Positions 41,140 to 50,369 of a stretch of DNA of 64,000 nucleotides are shown here, in pieces (the stretch's first letter is position 1; every line of letters starts with the position of its first letter). Source of the DNA: Inhella gelatinilytica. GTDB lineage: Bacteria; Pseudomonadota; Gammaproteobacteria; Burkholderiales; Burkholderiaceae_C. Below the pieces are notes generated by a model. It saw nothing but the letters and a program-made list of their open reading frames with translations. It had not been told where the DNA came from and did not search any database. The translations under genes were made by a program, and so were the position numbers. The stretch spans positions 248,001 to 312,000 of the forward strand of contig NZ_JAEDAL010000001.1 of NCBI RefSeq assembly GCF_016093295.1, in the 5' to 3' direction.

Positions 41140-42078
41140 TCAGGCCAAGGACTTGGCGTGTACCGCCTGTAGCGCCGCTACAAACGCCTGAGCCGCACGG
41201 GGCGGCGCCGGCGTCCGGCGGATCACGCAACTGAAGGTACAGGGGTAAGCAAGGACCTCTGGATTCACGGCCCGCAGCCGACCGGATTCAACAAAGGGCG
41301 CGGCATAGTGATCCGGCAAAAAGCCGACAAAGCGCCCAGACAACACCAGCAAGCCCACCGCTTCCTGGTCGGACGCGCTGGCCTGGCGGCTCAGTTGCCG
41401 CGCATGGGCCAGCATGAGGTTGGGCGAGTGATAGTCCAGCCCTGCCAGCGCCTGGTGGCGCAAGTCCGCCCACCCGGGCCGCAGCGCCCGGGTCTCAAAC
41501 CAGGGGTGACCCACCCCGGCATACAGCACCATGGTTTCGCGAAATAGCGGGGTGTAGACCAGTCGCTCCGAGCGCCGGTGCTCGGGCACCAGCCCCAAGT
41601 GGAACTGGCCGTCAATCACGCCCCGCTCGATGCTGCTGATCGACCCAATGTGCACGTGCAGCATCACATCGGGGGCCTGGTCGCGAAAACGGCTCAGTGC
41701 CAGCGGCACTTGTGCCGCCGGGTTGCTGGCGGTTTTCTCAAACACCGCCATATGCAAGTCGCCACCCAGGCGCTGGTGGATCTCGTGCAAGCGGCCGCGG
41801 AAGGCATCGGTCGCGCTCAGCAGCTGCTCGGCGGCCTCAACCAACTGCCGCCCCTCGGGCGTGAGCGCAAAGCCGCCGCGGCCGCGCCGGCACAGCACCA
41901 GCCCCAAGCGCTGCTCCAAGTCCTTCACGTGGCGGCTGATGGTGGAGATGGCGATGTTCAGTTCCAGTTCGGCCGCCGCCATTCCGCCGCAATCGGCCAC
42001 GGCCTTGAACACCCGCAGCAAGCGCAAATCCACGTCACCCAACTGCCCGATCAGAGCCCTTGATTTTTTTGGTTGCAT
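41140..42078 (-). CDS. LysR-family regulator of the beta-alanine/C3 locus
   Basis: A 312-residue transcription factor. The N-terminal winged HTH includes DVDLRLLRVFKAVADCGGMAAAELELNIAISTISRHVKDLEQRLGLVLCRR (residues 15-65), followed by the linker FALTPEGRQLVEAAEQLL and a periplasmic-binding-like effector domain. It is transcribed divergently from the transaminase gene, the standard arrangement for a LysR activator of that gene. The intergenic region is only 83 bases and contains the small palindrome at 42084-42093. The inducer (perhaps a beta-amino acid) is not known. Confidence 0.88.
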   Translation of the reverse strand: MQPKKSRALIGQLGDVDLRLLRVFKAVADCGGMAAAELELNIAISTISRHVKDLEQRLGLVLCRRGRGGFALTPEGRQLVEAAEQLLSATDAFRGRLHEIHQRLGGDLHMAVFEKTASNPAAQVPLALSRFRDQAPDVMLHVHIGSISSIERGVIDGQFHLGLVPEHRRSERLVYTPLFRETMVLYAGVGHPWFETRALRPGWADLRHQALAGLDYHSPNLMLAHARQLSRQASASDQEAVGLLVLSGRFVGFLPDHYAAPFVESGRLRAVNPEVLAYPCTFSCVIRRTPAPPRAAQAFVAALQAVHAKSLA

Positions 42079-42083
42079 AAAAA

Positions 42084-42093
42084 CTCAACTGAG
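42084..42093. promoter_or_regulatory. Candidate LysR operator in divergent control region
   Basis: CTCAACTGAG, a palindrome with 4-bp arms, lies six bases upstream of the LysR start in the 83-base divergent gap. The position fits autoregulation, but the arms are short and a T-N11-A match is not clear. The transaminase has a good Shine-Dalgarno GAGGAG at 42151-42156. Confidence 0.25.
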
Positions 42094-42161
42094 CTGGGAT
42101 ATTTCGCCATCGTATTCAAGCAAATAAAAGCGCAAGATCCCCCCATCCCCGAGGAGACCGC

Positions 42162-43517
42162 ATGAACCTGGCCGACACCCACTCGCTGCAAGCGTCCTTT
42201 GCCGACCCCGAATGGTTGGCCGCCCACTGGATGCCCTTCACCGGCAACCGGCAGTTCAAAGCGGCCCCGCGACTGTTCACCGCTGCCTCGGGCACGCACT
42301 ACACGACAGCGGATGGGCGTCAAATTTTTGACGGCCTCTCCGGCCTGTGGTGCTGCGGCCTGGGCCATGGCCGCCCTGAGCTGGTGGACGCGGTGGCGCG
42401 CCAGCTGGCGACGCTGGACTACTCACCCGCCTTCCAGTTCGGCCACCCGCTCTCGTTCGAGCTGGCCAACCAGATCGTGGCGCGCATGCCGAAGGATTCC
42501 GGCCTGAACCGGGTGTTCTTCACCGCCTCGGGCTCAGAGGCCGCCGACACCTCGCTGAAGATCGCCCGCGCTTATTGGCGCGCCCAGGGTCAGGCCAGCA
42601 AGACCCGCCTGATCGGCCGCGTCAAGGGCTACCACGGCGTGAACTTCGGCGGCATCTCGGTGGGGGGCATCGTCGGCAACCGCAAGACCTTTGGTCAGGG
42701 CATCGAGGCCGACCACCTGCCCCACACCCAGCCCCCCAGCGGCAGTTTTTTCAAAGGCATGCCGCCGACCGGCGCCGAGCTGGCCGACGAGCTTCTGAAC
42801 CTGATTGCCCTGCACGACGCCAGCACCATCGCCGCCGTCATCGTCGAGCCCTTCTCCGGATCGGCCGGCGTGGTGATCCCGCCCGTGGGCTACTTGCAGC
42901 GCCTGCGCGAGATTTGCACGCAGCACAACATCCTCTTGATCTTTGACGAGGTCATCACCGGCTTTGGCCGCGCGGGGGCCTGGACGGGTGCAGAGGCCTT
43001 TGGTGTCACGCCCGATCTGCTCAACTTTGCCAAGCAGGTGTCCAACGGCGTGCAGCCGCTGGGCGGCGTGGTCGCCAAGCAAGAGATTTACGACAGCTTC
43101 ATGCAGTCCGGCGGGCCGGACTACCTGCTGGAGCTGCCGCACGGCTACACCTACAGCGCCCACCCGGTGGCCTGCGCGGCGGCCCTGGCCACGCTGGCGG
43201 TGATGGAGCAGGAGCACACGCTCGACCAGGTGCGCACTCTGGCCCCGGCCTTCGAAGAGAAGGTGCACAACCTGCGCGGCGCCCGGCATGTGGCGGACAT
43301 CCGCAACTACGGTCTCGCGGCCGGCTTGACTATCACCGCCCACCCCGGTGAACCGGCCCGCCGCCCCTTTGAGATCGCGATGTCCATGTTTAAAAAGGGC
43401 TTCTACGTGCGCTATGGCGGCGACACCATTCAGCTCGCGCCGCCCTTCATCAGCACCCCGGCCCAGCTCGACAGCCTGATCAACGCCCTGGGCGAATCCC
43501 TCTCGGAAGTGGCCTGA
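42162..43517 (+). CDS. Beta-alanine (omega-amino acid):pyruvate transaminase
   Basis: PLP enzyme, 451 residues, transferring the amino group of beta-alanine to pyruvate to give malonate semialdehyde and alanine. Class III aminotransferase motifs are present: LWCCGLGHGRPELVDAV, FFTASGSEAADTSLKIARAYWRA, YHGVNFGGISVGGI, the PLP aspartate in LLIFDEVITGFGR, and Lys291 in NFAKQVSNGVQPLGG, which forms the Schiff base. The length and motif set fit OapT/BauA-type enzymes. It is one base from the dehydrogenase that consumes its product, so the two form an operon. Confidence 0.92.
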   Translation: MNLADTHSLQASFADPEWLAAHWMPFTGNRQFKAAPRLFTAASGTHYTTADGRQIFDGLSGLWCCGLGHGRPELVDAVARQLATLDYSPAFQFGHPLSFELANQIVARMPKDSGLNRVFFTASGSEAADTSLKIARAYWRAQGQASKTRLIGRVKGYHGVNFGGISVGGIVGNRKTFGQGIEADHLPHTQPPSGSFFKGMPPTGAELADELLNLIALHDASTIAAVIVEPFSGSAGVVIPPVGYLQRLREICTQHNILLIFDEVITGFGRAGAWTGAEAFGVTPDLLNFAKQVSNGVQPLGGVVAKQEIYDSFMQSGGPDYLLELPHGYTYSAHPVACAAALATLAVMEQEHTLDQVRTLAPAFEEKVHNLRGARHVADIRNYGLAAGLTITAHPGEPARRPFEIAMSMFKKGFYVRYGGDTIQLAPPFISTPAQLDSLINALGESLSEVA

Positions 43518-43518
43518 C

Positions 43519-45015
43519 ATGCCCCCCATCCAACACCTCATCAATGGCCAGTTGGTGGACGGCGGCAGCCGTCAATCTGATGTTTTCAACCCCGCCACCG
43601 GCCGCGTGAGCCGCCAGGTGCAACTGGCCGACGCCGTGACCGTGCAGCAGGCCATCGCGGCCGCACAGGCAGCTTTCCCGGCCTGGCGCAACACCCCGCC
43701 GCTCAAGCGCGCGCGGGTGATGAGCAAGCTCAAGGAACTCCTGGAAGCCAACGCCGAGCGCATCTGTCAGCTCATCACCGCCGAACACGGCAAGGTGCTG
43801 GCCGACGCCCTCGGGGAGCTGCAGCGCGGCATCGAGAACGTCGAATATGCGTCCTATGCACCCGAGCTGCTGAAAGGCGAGCACAGCCGAAACGTCGGCC
43901 CCGGCATCGACTCCTGGAGCGAGTTCCAGCCGCTCGGGGTGTGCGCCGGCATCACGCCGTTTAACTTCCCGGTCATGGTTCCGCTGTGGATGTGGCCCAT
44001 GGCCGTGGCTTGCGGCAACACCTTTGTGCTCAAGCCCTCGGAGCGCGATCCCTCCTCCGCCCTCTTGGTGGCCGAGCTGGCCTTGGAAGCCGGTCTGCCG
44101 CCCGGCGTGCTGAACGTTGTCCACGGCGACAAGGAGGCGGTCGACGCGCTGCTGGATTCGCCGCACGTCAAGGCCGTGAGCTTCGTCGGCTCCACGCCGA
44201 TTGCAGAGAGCATCTACCGCCACGGCAGCGCCTCCGGCAAACGCGTGCAAGCCCTGGGCGGCGCCAAGAACCACGCGGTGCTGATGCCCGATGCGGACTT
44301 GGACAACGCGGTGGCCGCTCTGATGGGCGCGGCCTTCGGCAGTTGTGGCGAGCGCTGCATGGCCGTGCCCCTGGTCGTGGCCGTGGGCCACGAGGTGGCC
44401 GACGCCGTGGTGGCCAAGCTGAAGGTGGAGATGGCCAAGATGACGGTCGGCCCGGGCGACACCGGCAACCCCGACATGGGCCCGCTGGTCACGCGCCAGC
44501 ACCTTGAGAAGGTGCGCGGCTATGTCGATCAGGGCGTGGCAGAAGGCGCCGAGCTGGTGGTGGATGGCCGCGGCCTCCAGGTGCCAGGCCATGAGGACGG
44601 CTACTTCCTCGGCCCCTGCCTCTTTGACCATGTCAAGCGCGGCATGCGCATCTACCAAGAAGAAATCTTTGGCCCGGTGCTGGGCGTGGTGCGCGTGCAC
44701 AGCCTGGCCGAGGCCATGGAGCTGATCGACAGCCACGAGTACGGCAACGGCACCTGCCTCTTCACCCGCGACGGGGAGGCGGCGCGCTACTTCACCGACC
44801 ACATCCAGGTCGGCATGGTGGGCGTCAACGTGCCCCTGCCGGTGCCGGTGGCCTACCACTCCTTCGGCGGCTGGAAGCGCAGCCTCTTTGGCGATCTGCA
44901 CGCCTACGGGCCGGACGCCGTGCGCTTTTATACCAAGCGCAAGACCATCACCCAGCGCTGGCCCAGCGGCGGGGTACGGGAGTCCGCGGTGTTCAGCTTC
45001 CCATCGAACAGCTGA
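43519..45015 (+). CDS. mmsA: CoA-acylating methylmalonate/malonate-semialdehyde dehydrogenase
   Basis: NAD-dependent enzyme, 498 residues, that turns malonate semialdehyde (or methylmalonate semialdehyde) into acetyl-CoA (or propionyl-CoA) and CO2. Motifs: ITPFNFPVMVPLWMWPMAVACGNTFVLKPSERDP (substrate/cofactor region), VSFVGSTPIAESIYRHGSASGKRVQALGGAKNHAV, and GSCGERCMAVPL with catalytic Cys280. The catalytic general-base Glu of ordinary ALDHs is replaced by Asn/His in KNHAV, as usual for the CoA-acylating class. Together with the transaminase it completes beta-alanine conversion to acetyl-CoA. Confidence 0.95.
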   Translation: MPPIQHLINGQLVDGGSRQSDVFNPATGRVSRQVQLADAVTVQQAIAAAQAAFPAWRNTPPLKRARVMSKLKELLEANAERICQLITAEHGKVLADALGELQRGIENVEYASYAPELLKGEHSRNVGPGIDSWSEFQPLGVCAGITPFNFPVMVPLWMWPMAVACGNTFVLKPSERDPSSALLVAELALEAGLPPGVLNVVHGDKEAVDALLDSPHVKAVSFVGSTPIAESIYRHGSASGKRVQALGGAKNHAVLMPDADLDNAVAALMGAAFGSCGERCMAVPLVVAVGHEVADAVVAKLKVEMAKMTVGPGDTGNPDMGPLVTRQHLEKVRGYVDQGVAEGAELVVDGRGLQVPGHEDGYFLGPCLFDHVKRGMRIYQEEIFGPVLGVVRVHSLAEAMELIDSHEYGNGTCLFTRDGEAARYFTDHIQVGMVGVNVPLPVPVAYHSFGGWKRSLFGDLHAYGPDAVRFYTKRKTITQRWPSGGVRESAVFSFPSNS

Positions 45016-45039: not shown

Positions 45040-45525
45040 TCAAAGCTGAGCCAGCGGTTCGTCGGCCAGCGCGGGGTCCGCCTGGAGCAGCGCGATCAAT
45101 TCCCCCATGCTGCGCTCCAGTTGCCGCGCGGACTCCGGTGTGAGGTCTTTCAGCGCCGCGGGCAACACACCCGCTGCCGGACCAGGCGCCTGCATCAGCA
45201 GGCGTTGCCCTTCAGGCGTCGCACGCAAGCGGACGAAGCGCTTGTCCTGAGCGTCGCGACGGGTCTCCACATAGCCGGCCGAATGCAAAAGCTTCACCAT
45301 GCTGCTGGCATTGGGCTGGCGGATGCTGAGGGCGCGAGCCAATTCATTCACCCCCAAGTCAGGCCGCTGGTCGATGACGGCAAGTGCCCACAGTTGCGCA
45401 CCGCCTATTCCAACTTCCCGTTCAACGGCTTGAAAGTGCGCTCGAACCGCCCGCAACACCACACGGAACTGACGCAGCAACCGCTCCGGGGTGTCGGTTT
45501 CCGATCCGTGGGGGACTGCCTTCAC
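45040..45525 (-). CDS. MarR-family repressor, last gene of antiporter operon
   Basis: A 161-residue winged-helix regulator: VNELARALSIRQPNASSMVKLLHSAGYVETRRDAQDKRFVRLRATPEGQRLL is the recognition helix and beta-wing (DxRxxxxxLT type). It is the sixth and last gene of the operon, overlapping uspA by ATGA. The promoter far upstream (about 50336-50363) contains a 13-base perfect palindrome that is the size and type bound by MarR dimers, so autorepression of the whole operon is likely. The inducer is unknown; MarR ligands are often phenolic or oxidising compounds. Confidence 0.88.
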   Translation of the reverse strand: MKAVPHGSETDTPERLLRQFRVVLRAVRAHFQAVEREVGIGGAQLWALAVIDQRPDLGVNELARALSIRQPNASSMVKLLHSAGYVETRRDAQDKRFVRLRATPEGQRLLMQAPGPAAGVLPAALKDLTPESARQLERSMGELIALLQADPALADEPLAQL

Positions 45526-45974
45526 TGCTCATCCTTACAAACCAAGACGGGAATTGGAGATGCTGTGATCAGGGCGGGAATCAGGTTGCCAGACAACAAG
45601 CGCATGACGGCATTCTGCGGTGGCGCCCCCACCAAGATGTAGGCGCAGTGCCAGCGGCGCGCTTGCTCGACCACGAGGCTGGAAAGGTCGCCACCGCGTT
45701 GAACCGCCACATGGTGAAGGATACCCGCGTGATCCGCCGCCTCAGCCGCTTGGCGTAAACGCTCCGCCGCCTCCAAGCGCAATGCCGCATCGGTCGTCTC
45801 GCCCGACTCCACCATCAGGGTGAACGCATCGCCCATGGCCGAACCCAGCGCCGGCAGGGGCACGAAGAACACCAATTCGGCCGCAAGCGCCCCTGCCAGC
45901 GCCAGCCCTTGCTGGACGGCCGACGCACTCCAGGGCGTCAGTTCCAGCACCACCATCAGACGTTTGATCGTCAC
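45522..45974 (-). CDS. Universal stress protein (UspA family)
   Basis: A 150-residue cytoplasmic protein with the Usp fold: KRLMVVLELTPWSASAVQQGLALAGALAAELVFF at the start and the C-terminal LVGAPPQNAVMRLLSGNLIPALITASPIPVLVC. The ATP-binding signature G-2x-G-9x-G(S/T) is only partly matched (VGAPPQNAVMRLLSGN), so nucleotide binding is uncertain. It sits between the second antiporter gene (one-base gap) and marR (ATGA overlap). In other bacteria Usp domains are fused to or encoded with antiporters as soluble regulators, which fits here. Confidence 0.8.
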   Translation of the reverse strand: MTIKRLMVVLELTPWSASAVQQGLALAGALAAELVFFVPLPALGSAMGDAFTLMVESGETTDAALRLEAAERLRQAAEAADHAGILHHVAVQRGGDLSSLVVEQARRWHCAYILVGAPPQNAVMRLLSGNLIPALITASPIPVLVCKDEQ

Positions 45975-45975
45975 C

Positions 45976-47202
45976 TCAACTCTCCTTCACCGGGACGGCT
46001 CCGCCATAACGCAACGCAAAAGCGGCGACGGGCGGGCCAAGGGTTTCAAAAATCGCCACGGAGGCCAACACGATGGCCGCCACCGGACCGGCGTATTCGG
46101 GCATCAACCCCGTTGAGGTCTGCACAAGACCAATAGCCAGCCCCGCCATGGGCACCAATAACAAGCCCTGCCCGGTTGCGCTCCGATGCGACACGCCGTA
46201 GGCCCGTGACGCCAAGTACACCGTCACGAATTTGACCGCGGTCCGGGTCGCCACGAAAGCCATTGCCAGGGGCAGAACCTCCCACACTTGCATGAGGTTG
46301 ATCTTGGCGCCGGCAAAGACAAAGAGGATGACAAAGAACACATCACCCCCCCCGCCGAATTCGATGCGGGTCAATCGTGTGCGCCCTTGCAGCCAGCGGC
46401 AGCCAATACCCAGGCACAGCCCCGCAAAGAGCCCGGACACCTCCAAGGCCTTCGCCAACCCCAAGGCCAGCGTGACTGCGCCCACCACCAAGGCGAATCG
46501 GTAGTGGCTGTCCGCGCTGCGAGTCAGCCGTGCAATCTGCGTGACCAACACCGACACCACAGCAGCAACCAATACCGCCCCGAGCAATTGATAGGCTGGC
46601 AGAGCCCAAGCGCCCACCACGTCAAATTGCGCCCCCAACAGGGCCACCGGCAACGCCAGGCTAAAAAACACAAACGACAACAGATTGTTGCCAGCCACCA
46701 GGGCCTTCGCCCCCTCAACGATGGTGCCCCGCGCATGGAGTTCCTCTGCCACATGCACCAGCACCGCAGGCGAAGACGAAACCGCCATCGAGGCCGCGAG
46801 AACCGCAACCCCCGCGCCAGCGCCAAACAGCATCAAGAGCGACCCAATCGCGATCGCCGTCGCCAAACTCTCCACCACGCTGGTGACCACCAAACGTCGA
46901 TTTTTTAGCGTCCGCTGGGGGTGAAGGCTCCCGCCCAAGCGAAACAGAATCAGGCCCAGGGCGATGTCCACCAGGATGCGGGAATTCAGCAGCGCCTCTT
47001 TCGATAGGAGCCCGATGCCGCTGGGTCCGATAAGCAGACCCAGCGCCATGAATGCAGTGATCGAAGGTAGCCACCGTATCCGCGCCGCCAGGGTGCCGCC
47101 CAGCACGCCGAATGCGAGCAACAAGCCAAACACGATCAGAGGATTGGAGGCAGGCCACGCACCAGGCAAGACCTGCAGCACCAGAGGCAAAGCGTCATTC
47201 AT
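45976..47202 (-). CDS. CPA2-type cation:proton antiporter (second in operon)
   Basis: A 408-residue inner-membrane protein with 11-13 hydrophobic segments. Kef/CPA2-like features are LPSITAFMALGLLIGPSG, the glycine-rich ILVDIALGLILFRLGGSLHP, SMAVSSSPAVLVHVAEEL in the position of the ion-site helix, and GLFAGLCLGIGCRW. The usual Asp pair of CPA antiporters is not obvious, and there is no C-terminal RCK/KTN domain, which in KefB/C controls gating by NAD(H) and glutathione. It overlaps the amidotransferase gene by ATGA. Ion specificity unknown. Confidence 0.85.
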   Translation of the reverse strand: MNDALPLVLQVLPGAWPASNPLIVFGLLLAFGVLGGTLAARIRWLPSITAFMALGLLIGPSGIGLLSKEALLNSRILVDIALGLILFRLGGSLHPQRTLKNRRLVVTSVVESLATAIAIGSLLMLFGAGAGVAVLAASMAVSSSPAVLVHVAEELHARGTIVEGAKALVAGNNLLSFVFFSLALPVALLGAQFDVVGAWALPAYQLLGAVLVAAVVSVLVTQIARLTRSADSHYRFALVVGAVTLALGLAKALEVSGLFAGLCLGIGCRWLQGRTRLTRIEFGGGGDVFFVILFVFAGAKINLMQVWEVLPLAMAFVATRTAVKFVTVYLASRAYGVSHRSATGQGLLLVPMAGLAIGLVQTSTGLMPEYAGPVAAIVLASVAIFETLGPPVAAFALRYGGAVPVKES

Positions 47203-47981
47203 TGGCGTCGCGCCTTCGCAAAGGCGAGAAAGTCATCCATCAGAGGTTCAGCACTCAGCCAATCCGAATGATCCGGATGGAACTCAGGGTGCCACTGCAC
47301 GCCAACTACGGTGTCAACGCCCTTGCCACGTATGGCTTCCACAATGCCATCGTCCGGACACATGGCCTCCACCTGCAGGTCGCCTCCCAAGCGTGCAATG
47401 GCTTGATGATGCAAGCTGGTGACCTTGGCCGAGTGAACCTCCGGATACAGGGCGGCCAAACGACTGTCCGGTACGAGTTCGATGGCATGGTGCAGTTGGT
47501 CGTACTGCGCAGGGTCGTAGTGCGTAATGGCGTCCGGCCGCTGGGTAGAAAGATCCTGGTAGAGCGTGCCCCCGAAGGCCACGTTAATCAACTGGCAGCC
47601 GCGGCAGATGCCGAGCACCGGTCGCCCTCGCCGCAAAAACACCTCCAACAATTCGAGCTCATAGCGGTCCCGCACCGGGTCGCCTTCCCATTCCGGGCGC
47701 TGCGGCAGCTCGCCATAGCTTTGCGGGCTCATGTCGGCGCCGCCCTGCAAAACGAGTCCATCCAGCGCAGCGGCGTATTCGCCCAGCGCAATTTGGCGGC
47801 GTTCGACTTCCGCGCCTTGGCCCAGTGCCGGAATCATGAAGACAAGAGCCCCTCGCCCCAGCACCCAGTGCGCAATGCTTTGCTCCAGGTAATGCAAGGT
47901 CTTGTTACGAAAACCCAGCTCCCGTGGGGGCTGATGAAGCAAGCGCGCCGACAGTCCAATGCGCAGCGGTTCGGGTTTCAT
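47199..47981 (-). CDS. Class I glutamine amidotransferase-like hydrolase (PuuD-like)
   Basis: A 260-residue protein of the gamma-glutamyl-GABA hydrolase group. The nucleophile motif is [21 protein letters not shown] with Cys in the elbow, and the His-Glu pair is in [28 protein letters not shown] matches the PuuD start of domain. Such enzymes cleave a gamma-glutamyl amide bond. It overlaps the carboxylate-amine ligase gene by ATGA, so a ligase that makes a gamma-glutamyl-like amide and a hydrolase that splits one are made together. The natural substrate is unknown. Confidence 0.88.
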
Positions 47982-49096
47982 GCCTCGCTCCAAATCACGG
48001 TTTGTTCGCGCACCAACTCGCCCAAGTCACACCCGTGGGCATACAGGCGGCGCAAACGCCCCGCATCGTTGCCAATATCTAGCAGTTCGTGGCGCAAATG
48101 CTGGATGGCCCCTTCCGCACGGAGCTCCATCGCATGCACTTCCAAGCGAGCGAACAGGTCTTCGAGCTCCGTACGCAGGAGTCGATGCTCGCCAGTGCTC
48201 GGGTCCACATAGGTCGCTTCCGGCCCAAAGCGACAGGCTTGGAAACGATTGAAGGTGTAGACGAGATAGTCATCCTCCGAGAGCTCGAACGGCCGCTCGG
48301 TGCGAATCCAACGCGCCAAACATTGGATGAAACCGGCGATGGCCGCCGCCTTGCGGACAGTCAACGGGGTATCCATCACCCGCACTTCGATCGTGCCGTA
48401 TTCCGGCTTGGGTCGAATGTCCCAATAGAAGTCCTTCATGCTCTTGACCACGCCGGTGCGGCGCATCTTCTGGAAGTATTCAGTGAACGCTTCCCAGCTC
48501 AAGACATAGGGCGCACGCCCCGACAGGGGAAAGGCAAAAACCGAGTTCAAGCGGGCCGAGTCGAACCCGGTATCCGCCCCTTGCACAAACGGAGACGACG
48601 ACGACAGCGCAATAAGGTGCGGGATGTAGCGCGACAGCCCATGCAGCAGTTGCAGCCCCTGATCCGGGCCCGAACAACCGATATGCACATGCTGCCCAAA
48701 CACCGTGAACTGCTTGGAGAGATAACCGTACAACTCCGATAGCTCCGCAAAACGCGGACGGTCAAAGATCTGACGGGCCGTCCAGTCCTGGAAGGGGTGC
48801 GTGCCCCCGCCACACAGCGCCACCTCCAGCCGTTTAGCACCCTGCTGGAGCGCGCCATGGATCTCCCGCAATTGGCTCAGGACATCGGCATGGTCTTCAC
48901 AAATGCCAGTCGACAACTCGATCATGGAGCGCGTCATTTCCGGCTTGACTTCGCCCGGAATCGACACGCCTCTCATCTGCCGCAGCAGATCCACGGCCTG
49001 AGGCGTCAAGTTGTAGTCATGGGTGTTGACGATTTGGAGTTCCAACTCCACGCCCAAGGTCAGCGGCCGCGACTGGGAAAAGACCGGCAAGCTCAT
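47978..49096 (-). CDS. ybdK: YbdK/GCS2-family carboxylate-amine ligase
   Basis: A 372-residue ATP-dependent ligase related to glutamate-cysteine ligase. Signatures: [19 protein letters not shown] (start of GCS2), [48 protein letters not shown] and the metal site [15 protein letters not shown]. YbdK-type proteins have weak glutamate-cysteine ligase activity in vitro and their real product is usually unknown. Its ATGA overlaps with the antiporter before and the amidotransferase after suggest a small thiol or gamma-glutamyl compound linked to the transport function. Confidence 0.9.
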
Positions 49097-50280
49097 GCTT
49101 CACTCCGTTTGATTTCAACCGGGACCTCACCCGCTCGCCGCAGCCCCCAGCGGACAGCCAAGGGCCCCGTCAACTCCAGGATCGCCAGGGCGGACAGCAC
49201 CACTGGCGCGATTTGCGCGCCCACGCTGGGTGCGGCCACCATCAACTCGTTGAGCAACAGCAAACAAGTGACTGACAGCGGCATAAGCGTGATGGCCAAC
49301 GCCAACCCTTGCCGCTCTTTCAAACCGGACGGACGACGCAGGGCCAAAACGGCCAGCGTCTTGGCGGCCAAGCGCGCGGCCACCAAGGCGCACGCCATCC
49401 ACCAGCCCGCCTGCAACGTGCCCACTGACCAGGCGGAGCCCACCACCACAAACATCATGAGCACCAACAGCCCCCCGGCCGTGCCGAAATGCTGCGGCCA
49501 AGGCCAGGCCCGGTCGCTGATGTTGCGCAGCAGGGCGCCGGCCAGCAACGGCACCAACAGCGTGGACGTTCCGACCAAGCGGGCCGAGTGGCTGACCAAC
49601 AGAATCAGGGCCAGCACGAGCAACACGGTGTTCTCCTGCCGCAGGTTCATCCATTTCGTCACACCCGCAATCGCCAAGGCCAGGGCCGTCGCCAGCGCCA
49701 AGGCACTGGCCATGGACAGCGACAACTCACTCAGCGCAAGCCACGCGATAGGCGCCTGCCCCAAATGAATCATGCTGAGCAGCGGCACCATCAAGATCGC
49801 GGCGGCCAAGGTGCCCGTTGCCGCCAACACGGCCATGCGCTGCGCCACCTGGCCTTGCGCCCCCAGCTCGCGCGCCACACGCCCGGCCACCGCCACTGAT
49901 GCCGGCAGCGTCGCCACCGCTGCAGCAGCGGCAGCCTGCACACCCACCCCCAGCCAATAAAGGACAGCAAAGCTCAGTCCAGCGGTCAGGCTGGCTTCAA
50001 GCACACACACCAGCAACATGGACCGATTGCTTGCGAGCCATCGCAAACGCAGTTGGGCCCCCACCTCAAACAGAAGCACCGCCGCTGCGCTGTCCACCAC
50101 GCCGCGTGACCAGCCACTGAGGGGCAAGGCAACCCCATGCCCAGTCAGCGCCAACATGGCTCCGACCAGCGAATAACCCAACACACGCGGCAGGCCAGCG
50201 GTTCGCACCCCCACCTCGGCCCCCAAAGCACCCACCACCGCCAAGGCGGTCATGAGCCAGATCGAATCCGCTGGATTCAT
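49093..50280 (-). CDS. CPA2-type cation:proton antiporter (first in operon)
   Basis: A 395-residue inner-membrane protein with about 12 hydrophobic segments and no cytoplasmic nucleotide-binding tail, so again a KefB/C-like core without RCK domain. Recognisable pieces: [41 protein letters not shown] (second helix of the core), [23 protein letters not shown] and [16 protein letters not shown]. Conserved acidic residues are fewer than in Na+/H+ antiporters. Start ATG 50280 follows GGAAGGGG. It shares little obvious identity with the second antiporter beyond the fold, so the two may form a heteromeric pair. Confidence 0.82.
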
Positions 50281-50335
50281 TCGATTCCCCTTCCGTGATC
50301 GTGCAACGGCTCCGTGAGCCCAAAAGTTTCACTTG

Positions 50336-50363
50336 CATATATACCTAGCAAATATATTGTCAA
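50336..50363 (-). promoter_or_regulatory. Promoter of the six-gene antiporter operon
   Basis: Reading minus: TTGACA (50363-50358), a 16-base spacer, TATATG (50341-50336), then about 55 bases of leader to ATG 50280. This AT-rich block stands out sharply from its GC-rich surroundings. The -35 box lies inside the palindrome at 50351-50369. Confidence 0.6.
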
Positions 50364-50369
50364 TATGTT
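50351..50369. promoter_or_regulatory. Palindromic operator overlapping the operon -35 box
   Basis: The core ATATTG-T-CAATAT (50354-50366) is a perfect 13-base palindrome; adding the outer bases gives 19 bases with one mismatched pair. The size and AT-rich symmetric form fit a MarR dimer site, and the operon encodes a MarR protein. Binding there would block RNA polymerase at the -35 box. Confidence 0.6.

Follow-up and report, generated by a model that had tools for sequence, protein, structure and literature searches.

Escherichia coli YbdK is a carboxylate-amine ligase whose structure and in-vitro ligase activity were reportedly published in 2004; to our knowledge, no physiological role has been settled for it. 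PuuA is a glutamine-synthetase-type ligase. The gamma-glutamylation of amines by PuuA together with PuuD is established (accessible part of PMC9397018). A 2008 study of gene neighborhoods noted a ligase of GCS2 size next to an amidotransferase-like peptidase; the words antiporter and transporter appear nowhere in its main text (PMC2588565). Among the K+/H+ exchangers KefC and KefB, which are of the CPA2 type, KefC binds K+ through the pair Q155-D156. D156 is strictly conserved and essential, and in the D156N variant the K+ density is gone (accessible part of PMC11150392). We analyzed a six-gene operon that combines relatives of these proteins, located in a 64,000-nucleotide stretch of Inhella gelatinilytica DNA (contig NZ_JAEDAL010000001.1, positions 248,001 to 312,000; hereafter the window). 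It encodes two CPA2-fold membrane proteins (A and B), a YbdK-type ligase (G), a PuuD-like hydrolase (H), a universal stress protein (U), and a MarR-family regulator (M). The evidence supports a joint system with A and G as its two-gene core, in which the membrane protein has lost the ion-site acid. No description of the A-G pair was found in the literature searched, from which subscription papers were mostly out of scope, and an earlier mention is possible.

The order A-G is conserved far beyond chance and is widespread in bacteria of the Burkholderiales type. A family sample of 200 genomes, including that of the window, was searched with A and with G; A was matched in 113 genomes and G in 118. 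With the rows of the window's own genome excluded, A lies directly upstream of G on the same strand, with a gap of 4-208 bases, at 107 of 120 G matches from 117 other genomes. The 13 exceptions are two contig ends (genomes G104 and G171), seven weak, partial or other-subfamily matches (G002, G039, G064, G094, G113, G121, G130), and four real G genes without A (G011, G075, G077, G182). Two more G loci have a diverged A-type protein upstream (L166, L169). Genomes G017, G052, G168 and G487 carry two G genes, each with its own A. In the named loci A is upstream of G in 80 of 80; these are the best 80 of at least 583 matches to the G profile and hence close relatives. The named set overlaps with the family sample (L126/L056 and L138/L055, for example, are the same contigs). 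All adjacency counts come from related genomes, so independent events are fewer than the counts. Genes in the fetched loci were picked from open reading frames, without a gene caller.

Across the phylum, 299 sampled genomes, again including that of the window, contain 15 loci with G at 430 bits or more. Of these, 12 adjoin an A/B-type protein, which in genome G367 scores best as B type. The remaining three are from one family, and the G of the two that were fetched groups with E. coli YbdK, whose gene has no antiporter neighbor. By coordinates, no A stands beside the weaker GCS2 matches of the same search. In the tree of G, the E. coli-type genes and the four unpaired genes of the family sample fall inside the A-linked group with low support (0.33), which would mean that A was lost from them rather than gained late by the others.

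These counts bear out the suggestion of the first-pass annotation, which was made from the sequence of the window, that the ligase has an antiporter-fold protein as its partner. It had also treated all six genes as one unit and proposed a check of gene order across genomes. The core A-G is strongly co-conserved, but the full order was seen in no other locus examined. The nearest order is A-G-H-B in L032. Others are A-G-B-H in L055 and L138 (probably one genome), B-A-G-H in L056 and L126 (probably one genome), and M-A-G-B in L053 and L054. Among the best 80 named loci, H is nearby in 22, M in three and B in two. B proper gave 17 matches in 16 genomes of the family sample (E below 1e-140), nine of which adjoin A-G.

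The AlphaFold models of A and B (predicted local distance difference test scores of 91.4 and 83.7) match NapA, NHA2 and KefC. Foldseek E values against KefC (8bxg) are 6.6e-8 for A and 9.4e-9 for B. Both proteins also match the Pfam family Na_H_Exchanger (PF00999), at 59.1 and 94 bits for a cut-off of 26.2. Fold and Pfam match are thus those of CPA2 proteins, but the essential aspartate of the ion site in transmembrane helix 6 is missing. We aligned this site in 110 A proteins (that of the window and 109 others), 19 B proteins, six ordinary antiporters, and 12 proteins termed X, the closest relatives from outside the order (one in the same class, eleven in other classes of the phylum). An acid at site 2, the position of KefC D156, is found in none of the 110 A and none of the 19 B. 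The pair in A is NT in 53, ST in 17, NS in 14, GT in seven (including the window's own), NV in seven and NC in three, with nine others; in B it is NN in 19 of 19. The six ordinary antiporters have QD (four), ED (one) and DD (one). In X, which shares the fold as NapA and other DD-type CPA2 proteins do, the pair is DD in eight, ND in three and NI in one. A single A of the 110 has Asp at site 1 (L175, 6278-7510, pair DC); its genome has two A-G pairs.

The register of the alignment depends on the intermediates. With the DD-type relatives included, D156 falls on A157 and B173; without them it falls opposite A154 and B170 (MAFFT) or A154 and B174 (hhalign). We also looked along the helix. In the first sets, no acid occurs in A149-163 (0/36) or in B167-181 (0/13). 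The larger set has one in 1/110 A (L175) and in 1/19 B (L178, a Glu near the helix start). Wider stretches that include the helix ends contain acids in 10 of 36 A and 2 of 13 B.

As a control we took 47 PF00999 proteins from 15 genomes (that of the window and relatives), chosen by Pfam match alone. The site-2 aspartate is present in 44 of them. The 29 high scorers have QD (25), ED (three) or DD (one). Among the 18 lower scorers it is present in 15 (ED, DD, QD or ND), and the other three have NT, GC and AC. These three (L258, L259, L261) are the only lower scorers with G found alongside; the neighbor scan for G covered the 18 lower scorers, not the 29 high ones. The control derives from 56 listed places. 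Loci were available for 30, and L154 was dropped because it did not match the control profile, which left 29, two of them also among the six ordinary antiporters above. A further 18 loci were fetched. The remaining eight places were left out (from the window's genome the A and two B, from G001 the B, from G002 the B and two fragments, and from G003 the A). L259 and L261 come from two congeners, and it is their A-type proteins whose ion-site pairs are GC and AC.

Arg303 in transmembrane helix 11 is present in 110/110 A and 19/19 B, and Lys307, which A and B share with KefC and KefB, in 106/110 and 18/19. Arg303 was considered as a new gain in A and B, and this was rejected since all 12 X have it too and it is hence older. 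KefC Glu337 is gone from 110/110 A, 18/19 B and 12/12 X. With Arg303 kept and Lys307 mostly kept, the ion-site region is left basic. A basic site without carboxylates suggests an anionic substrate, against which an acid in transmembrane helix 4, described below, is the strongest argument. In the protein tree the support is 0.84 for A, 0.94 for B, 0.93 for A+B+X and 0.18 for B+X. The X proteins (L182-L193), mostly DD-type, are the closest to A and B that were found, and no G was seen around them in the stretches fetched.

The loss of the acid could instead mean that A and B no longer transport and serve as a sensor or scaffold through which the ligase is tied to the membrane, which would also suit the very tight pairing with a single enzyme. 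We consider this very unlikely, as residues of the transport core are conserved: R303 and P334 are invariant and K307 is mostly retained.

The acid may also have moved. Glu95 of A, in transmembrane helix 4, is acidic in all 110 A (109 E and one D), and the equivalent Glu111 is present in 18 of 19 B, compared with 2/12 X and 0/6 ordinary antiporters; the residue is thus new relative to most X. A and B would then still be cation/proton antiporters, with a ligase product or a low-molecular thiol modulating them under stress. The NapA/KefC fold and the mostly retained Lys307 fit this, as does the company of B at two loci. In L170 (2849-4881) B adjoins a separate TrkA_N-domain protein, and in L177 (4156-7302) a MarR-B pair adjoins a DD-type antiporter. 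On the other side, D156 is essential in KefC and its counterparts (accessible part of PMC11150392), and no precedent for a helix 4 acid was found. We regard a relocated acid as unlikely.

The first-pass annotation had read A and B as Kef-like antiporters. It proposed that they may form a heteromeric K+ efflux system of the Kef type that responds to a gamma-glutamyl or thiol signal, with UspA as soluble gate. A ligase-hydrolase pair does stand beside antiporter folds that lack RCK, as it had said, B adjoins A-G at about half of its loci, and a Usp gene occurs after a CLC gene in L201 and before MarR-G in L165. Neither A nor B has an RCK or TrkA_N domain by Pfam or in the models, and both end with the membrane domain. 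The QD motif is absent, and none of the six operon genes encodes KefF or KefG. Kef membership was rejected on the motif and the missing RCK. Furthermore, A has no B nearby in 78 of the best 80 named loci. The genome already holds a GshA (TIGR02049) that supplies the glutathione precursor, and a glutathione role for G is unlikely for the same reason. Gating of this kind therefore appears highly improbable, and thiol-gated cation antiport was not upheld.

The enzymes appear intact. G matches Pfam GCS2 at 189.4 bits and the NCBIfam YbdK equivalog PRK13516 at 568.7 bits (cut-off 425). Its closest solved structures, E. coli YbdK (1r8g) and 1tt4, are full-length homologues (E about 1e-105). The metal motif GhExE, as defined in the accessible part of PMC2588565, is present, with G15, E17 and E19 invariant in 26/26 sequences. 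H matches Peptidase_C26 at 186.6 bits and, among other Protein Data Bank chains, 3fij, 7d4r and PuuD (6vtv). It scores below the cut-off of the NCBIfam PuuD equivalog PRK11366 (90.6 bits versus 266), and Cys126, His231 and Glu233 are invariant in 8/8 aligned sequences. Judged by these residues, G and H could make and break a gamma-glutamyl bond, in agreement with what had been proposed for the pair. The logic of a ligase with a C26 gamma-glutamyl hydrolase is shared with PuuA-PuuD. In contrast, the ligase here is of the GCS2 type, the carrier has the CPA2 fold, and no PuuB oxidase or PuuC dehydrogenase was found by Pfam or NCBIfam among the six genes. The 2008 ligase-peptidase report describes the same pairing as G/H, with a different GCS2-like family (PMC2588565, accessible part). 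Under methylglyoxal, an electrophile, E. coli ybdK is missing from the genes whose RNA polymerase occupancy rises (accessible part of PMC3739934). In L167 (4179-9107), a single run contains an MFS carrier, a kynureninase, and then a distant GCS2-H (C26) pair; from its gene content this run could gamma-glutamylate a kynurenine-type amine.

The operon, in the order A-G-H-B-U-M, consists of six tightly packed genes running from 50280 down to 45040 on the minus strand (Table 1). The junctions had been described as ATGA overlaps or a one-base gap. Three are indeed ATGA overlaps (A/G at 49096-49093, G/H at 47981-47978, H/B at 47202-47199) and B/U is a one-base gap at 45975, but U/M is a GTGA overlap (45525-45522). 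The G/H overlap holds if H starts at its ATG, which we adopted; the open reading frame list places the start at an upstream TTG (47993). U and M match Pfam Usp and MarR_2 above cut-off, at 52.7 and 47.8 bits.

Table 1. Operon genes and upstream palindrome, in positions of the window.
Feature	Position	Strand	Description	Basis
A	49093..50280	-	CPA2-fold membrane protein, 395 residues, first gene; ion-site motif G156-T157, not [QEDN]D	
G	47978..49096	-	YbdK-type GCS2 carboxylate-amine (gamma-glutamyl) ligase, 372 residues	Pfam, NCBIfam
H	47199..47981	-	Peptidase_C26, PuuD-like gamma-glutamyl hydrolase, 260 residues from ATG start	Pfam, PDB matches
B	45976..47202	-	Second CPA2-fold membrane protein, 408 residues; ion-site motif N172-N173	
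U	45522..45974	-	Universal stress protein, single domain, 150 residues	Pfam Usp
M	45040..45525	-	MarR-family regulator, 161 residues; subfamily often adjoins ion-transporter genes	Pfam MarR_2
Palindrome	50354..50366	none	ATATTGACAATAT, perfectly palindromic; 73 bases upstream of the start of A; candidate MarR operator	

The regulator leads to another class of transporter. The subfamily of M has 50 matches in 43 of the 200 family genomes, nine of which adjoin A, B, G or, in genome G130, a distant GCS2. From the remaining 41 matches, 20 loci were retrieved, chiefly high-ranking ones, and one to three neighbors were scanned at each. A CLC anion transporter gene is directly adjacent in five and one gene away in four; a PF07399 Na+/H+ antiporter is nearby in two and an H-type hydrolase in one. 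At 8/20, neither CLC, PF07399 nor H was seen among the neighbors scanned. These nine MarR-CLC loci (L197-L201, L203, L205, L207, L210) are joined by L168, where a MarR gene is followed by CLC, H and a distant GCS2 (H 51% and M 41% identical to those of the window). GSGIP and GREGP are present in all ten CLC proteins. In L201 a Usp gene follows CLC, in L198 an MscS-type channel gene lies beside M, and L165 has the order Usp-MarR-G without A (Usp 38% and MarR 43% identical). The M-type subfamily is possibly, from this company, a CLC regulator, and the repeated occurrence of this MarR and Usp with ion-transport genes is in line with the first-pass annotation. MarR, Usp, the hydrolase and the ligase thus come back beside transporters of different folds, and A and B occupy the place that CLC has elsewhere, although their fold is unrelated to that of CLC.

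A and B might accordingly move a simple inorganic anion, as CLC does, while the ligase makes an osmolyte or acid-stress metabolite in parallel rather than in sequence. The shared regulator subfamily beside CLC proteins with both signatures is consistent with this, as are MscS-type channel genes, which lie upstream of A-G-H in seven loci, as well as beside M in L198. An eighth locus, L122, has one after G; the Pfam assignment of this group was made on one member, L091. The near-obligatory adjacency of A and G, however, suggests a link tighter than shared stress, and among the ten MarR-CLC loci only L168 has a GCS2 gene in the stretch fetched. Parallel action of this kind seems quite unlikely to us.

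We prefer a reading in which the product of the ligase is the cargo. G would link glutamate, through its gamma-carboxylate, to an amine or an amino acid, a bond that H would be able to cleave. A would descend from cation/proton antiporters, as would B in this operon, and both would have lost the cation-binding carboxylate. Their cargo across the membrane would most likely be a gamma-glutamyl compound, anionic or zwitterionic, or else a counter-anion. M may be a repressor, with the palindrome upstream of A perhaps as its target, and M and U would set expression or activity under stress. A and B would therefore be elevator-fold carriers that have exchanged a cation for an anion, likeliest the gamma-glutamyl product of G that H cleaves, under MarR/Usp control. 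This reading is tentative, and we put it at somewhat less than an even chance. It draws on the observed gene set, the A-G pairing, the loss of the ion-site acid, the intact active sites, and the MarR, Usp and transporter company; the substrate and its anionic nature, the direction of transport, and the operator are what we infer. Possible, though on the doubtful side, is a broader proposal: a whole branch of the cation/proton antiporter fold, which more than half of the sampled family genomes contain, gave up its cation site (DD to NT, NN and others) for anionic gamma-glutamyl carriage, is inherited with its ligase, and sits in the regulated slot that CLC fills in sister genomes.

Several points weigh against our preferred reading. 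G can work without A, because four good G matches and E. coli ybdK are unpaired. With H beside A-G in only 22 and B in only 2 of the best 80 loci, hydrolysis and the second carrier are not part of the core. B keeps NN without G near, as eight of its 17 loci lie away from A-G; the acid loss thus marks the A/B branch and not adjacency to G alone. In L259 and L261 Lys307 is replaced by Thr. Glu95, as a relocated carboxylate, could support cation transport. In loci of the Acidovorax/Polaromonas type, A-G is surrounded by unrelated genes of housekeeping function (AIR-synthase-like, ApaG, ribulose-phosphate epimerase), and the link between MarR and CLC could stem from general ion stress.

The near-constant company of A with YbdK in the family nevertheless offers a handle on the role of this ligase, since the cargo of A would reveal the product of G. 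If A and B do move something other than a cation, they would show the elevator antiporter fold changing its substrate through the loss of its carboxylates, and many proteins named 'cation:proton antiporter' would be misnamed.

The palindrome ATATTGACAATAT upstream of A is a possible MarR operator. It is the sole exact copy in the genome, which has one other site with one mismatch; with up to one mismatch allowed, 0.02 copies would be expected in the window. A promoter scan upstream of A found none. A conserved operator ATTGNCAAT was rejected. It occurs at 12 of 194 loci, of which L001, L002 and L158 are the window's own site, and the rest lie outside MarR-A gaps by coordinates.

A second copy of B, 69% identical, is present in the same genome (L069; genome G000, contig C20, about 123.7-125.5 kb) beside a divergent MarR gene of the same subfamily as M; A, G and H were not found in the 14 kb fetched around it. 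About eight loci, L129 and similar ones from Burkholderia, continue after A-G with genes for a MarR regulator, a GATase (PRK07053 model), an oxidoreductase of the old-yellow-enzyme type, and a protein with a SET domain; these domains were read from one member. In the window, a cassette at 41140-45015 is convergent with the operon. It encodes a LysR regulator (Pfam), an omega-aminotransferase (AptA model, 687 bits versus 500), and a CoA-acylating methylmalonate-semialdehyde dehydrogenase (652 versus 448.5), presumably for beta-alanine-type degradation. Its inclusion in the system was rejected, as these genes are absent among the recurrent neighbor clusters scanned.

From two congeners without A and G, the operon first seemed to be missing from the genus; this was rejected because two of five congeners have G (54 and 56% identical), in L259 and L261, beside the acid-less A-type proteins. 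One other congener has only a weak G match (25% identity) and two have none. G from Rubrivivax and Leptothrix, which are other genera, is 70-71% identical to that of the window. The third-position GC of the operon is 0.69-0.80, compared with 0.82-0.88 in five flanking genes. Given the lower identity within the genus and the lower third-position GC, the window's copy of the operon may have come from outside the genus.

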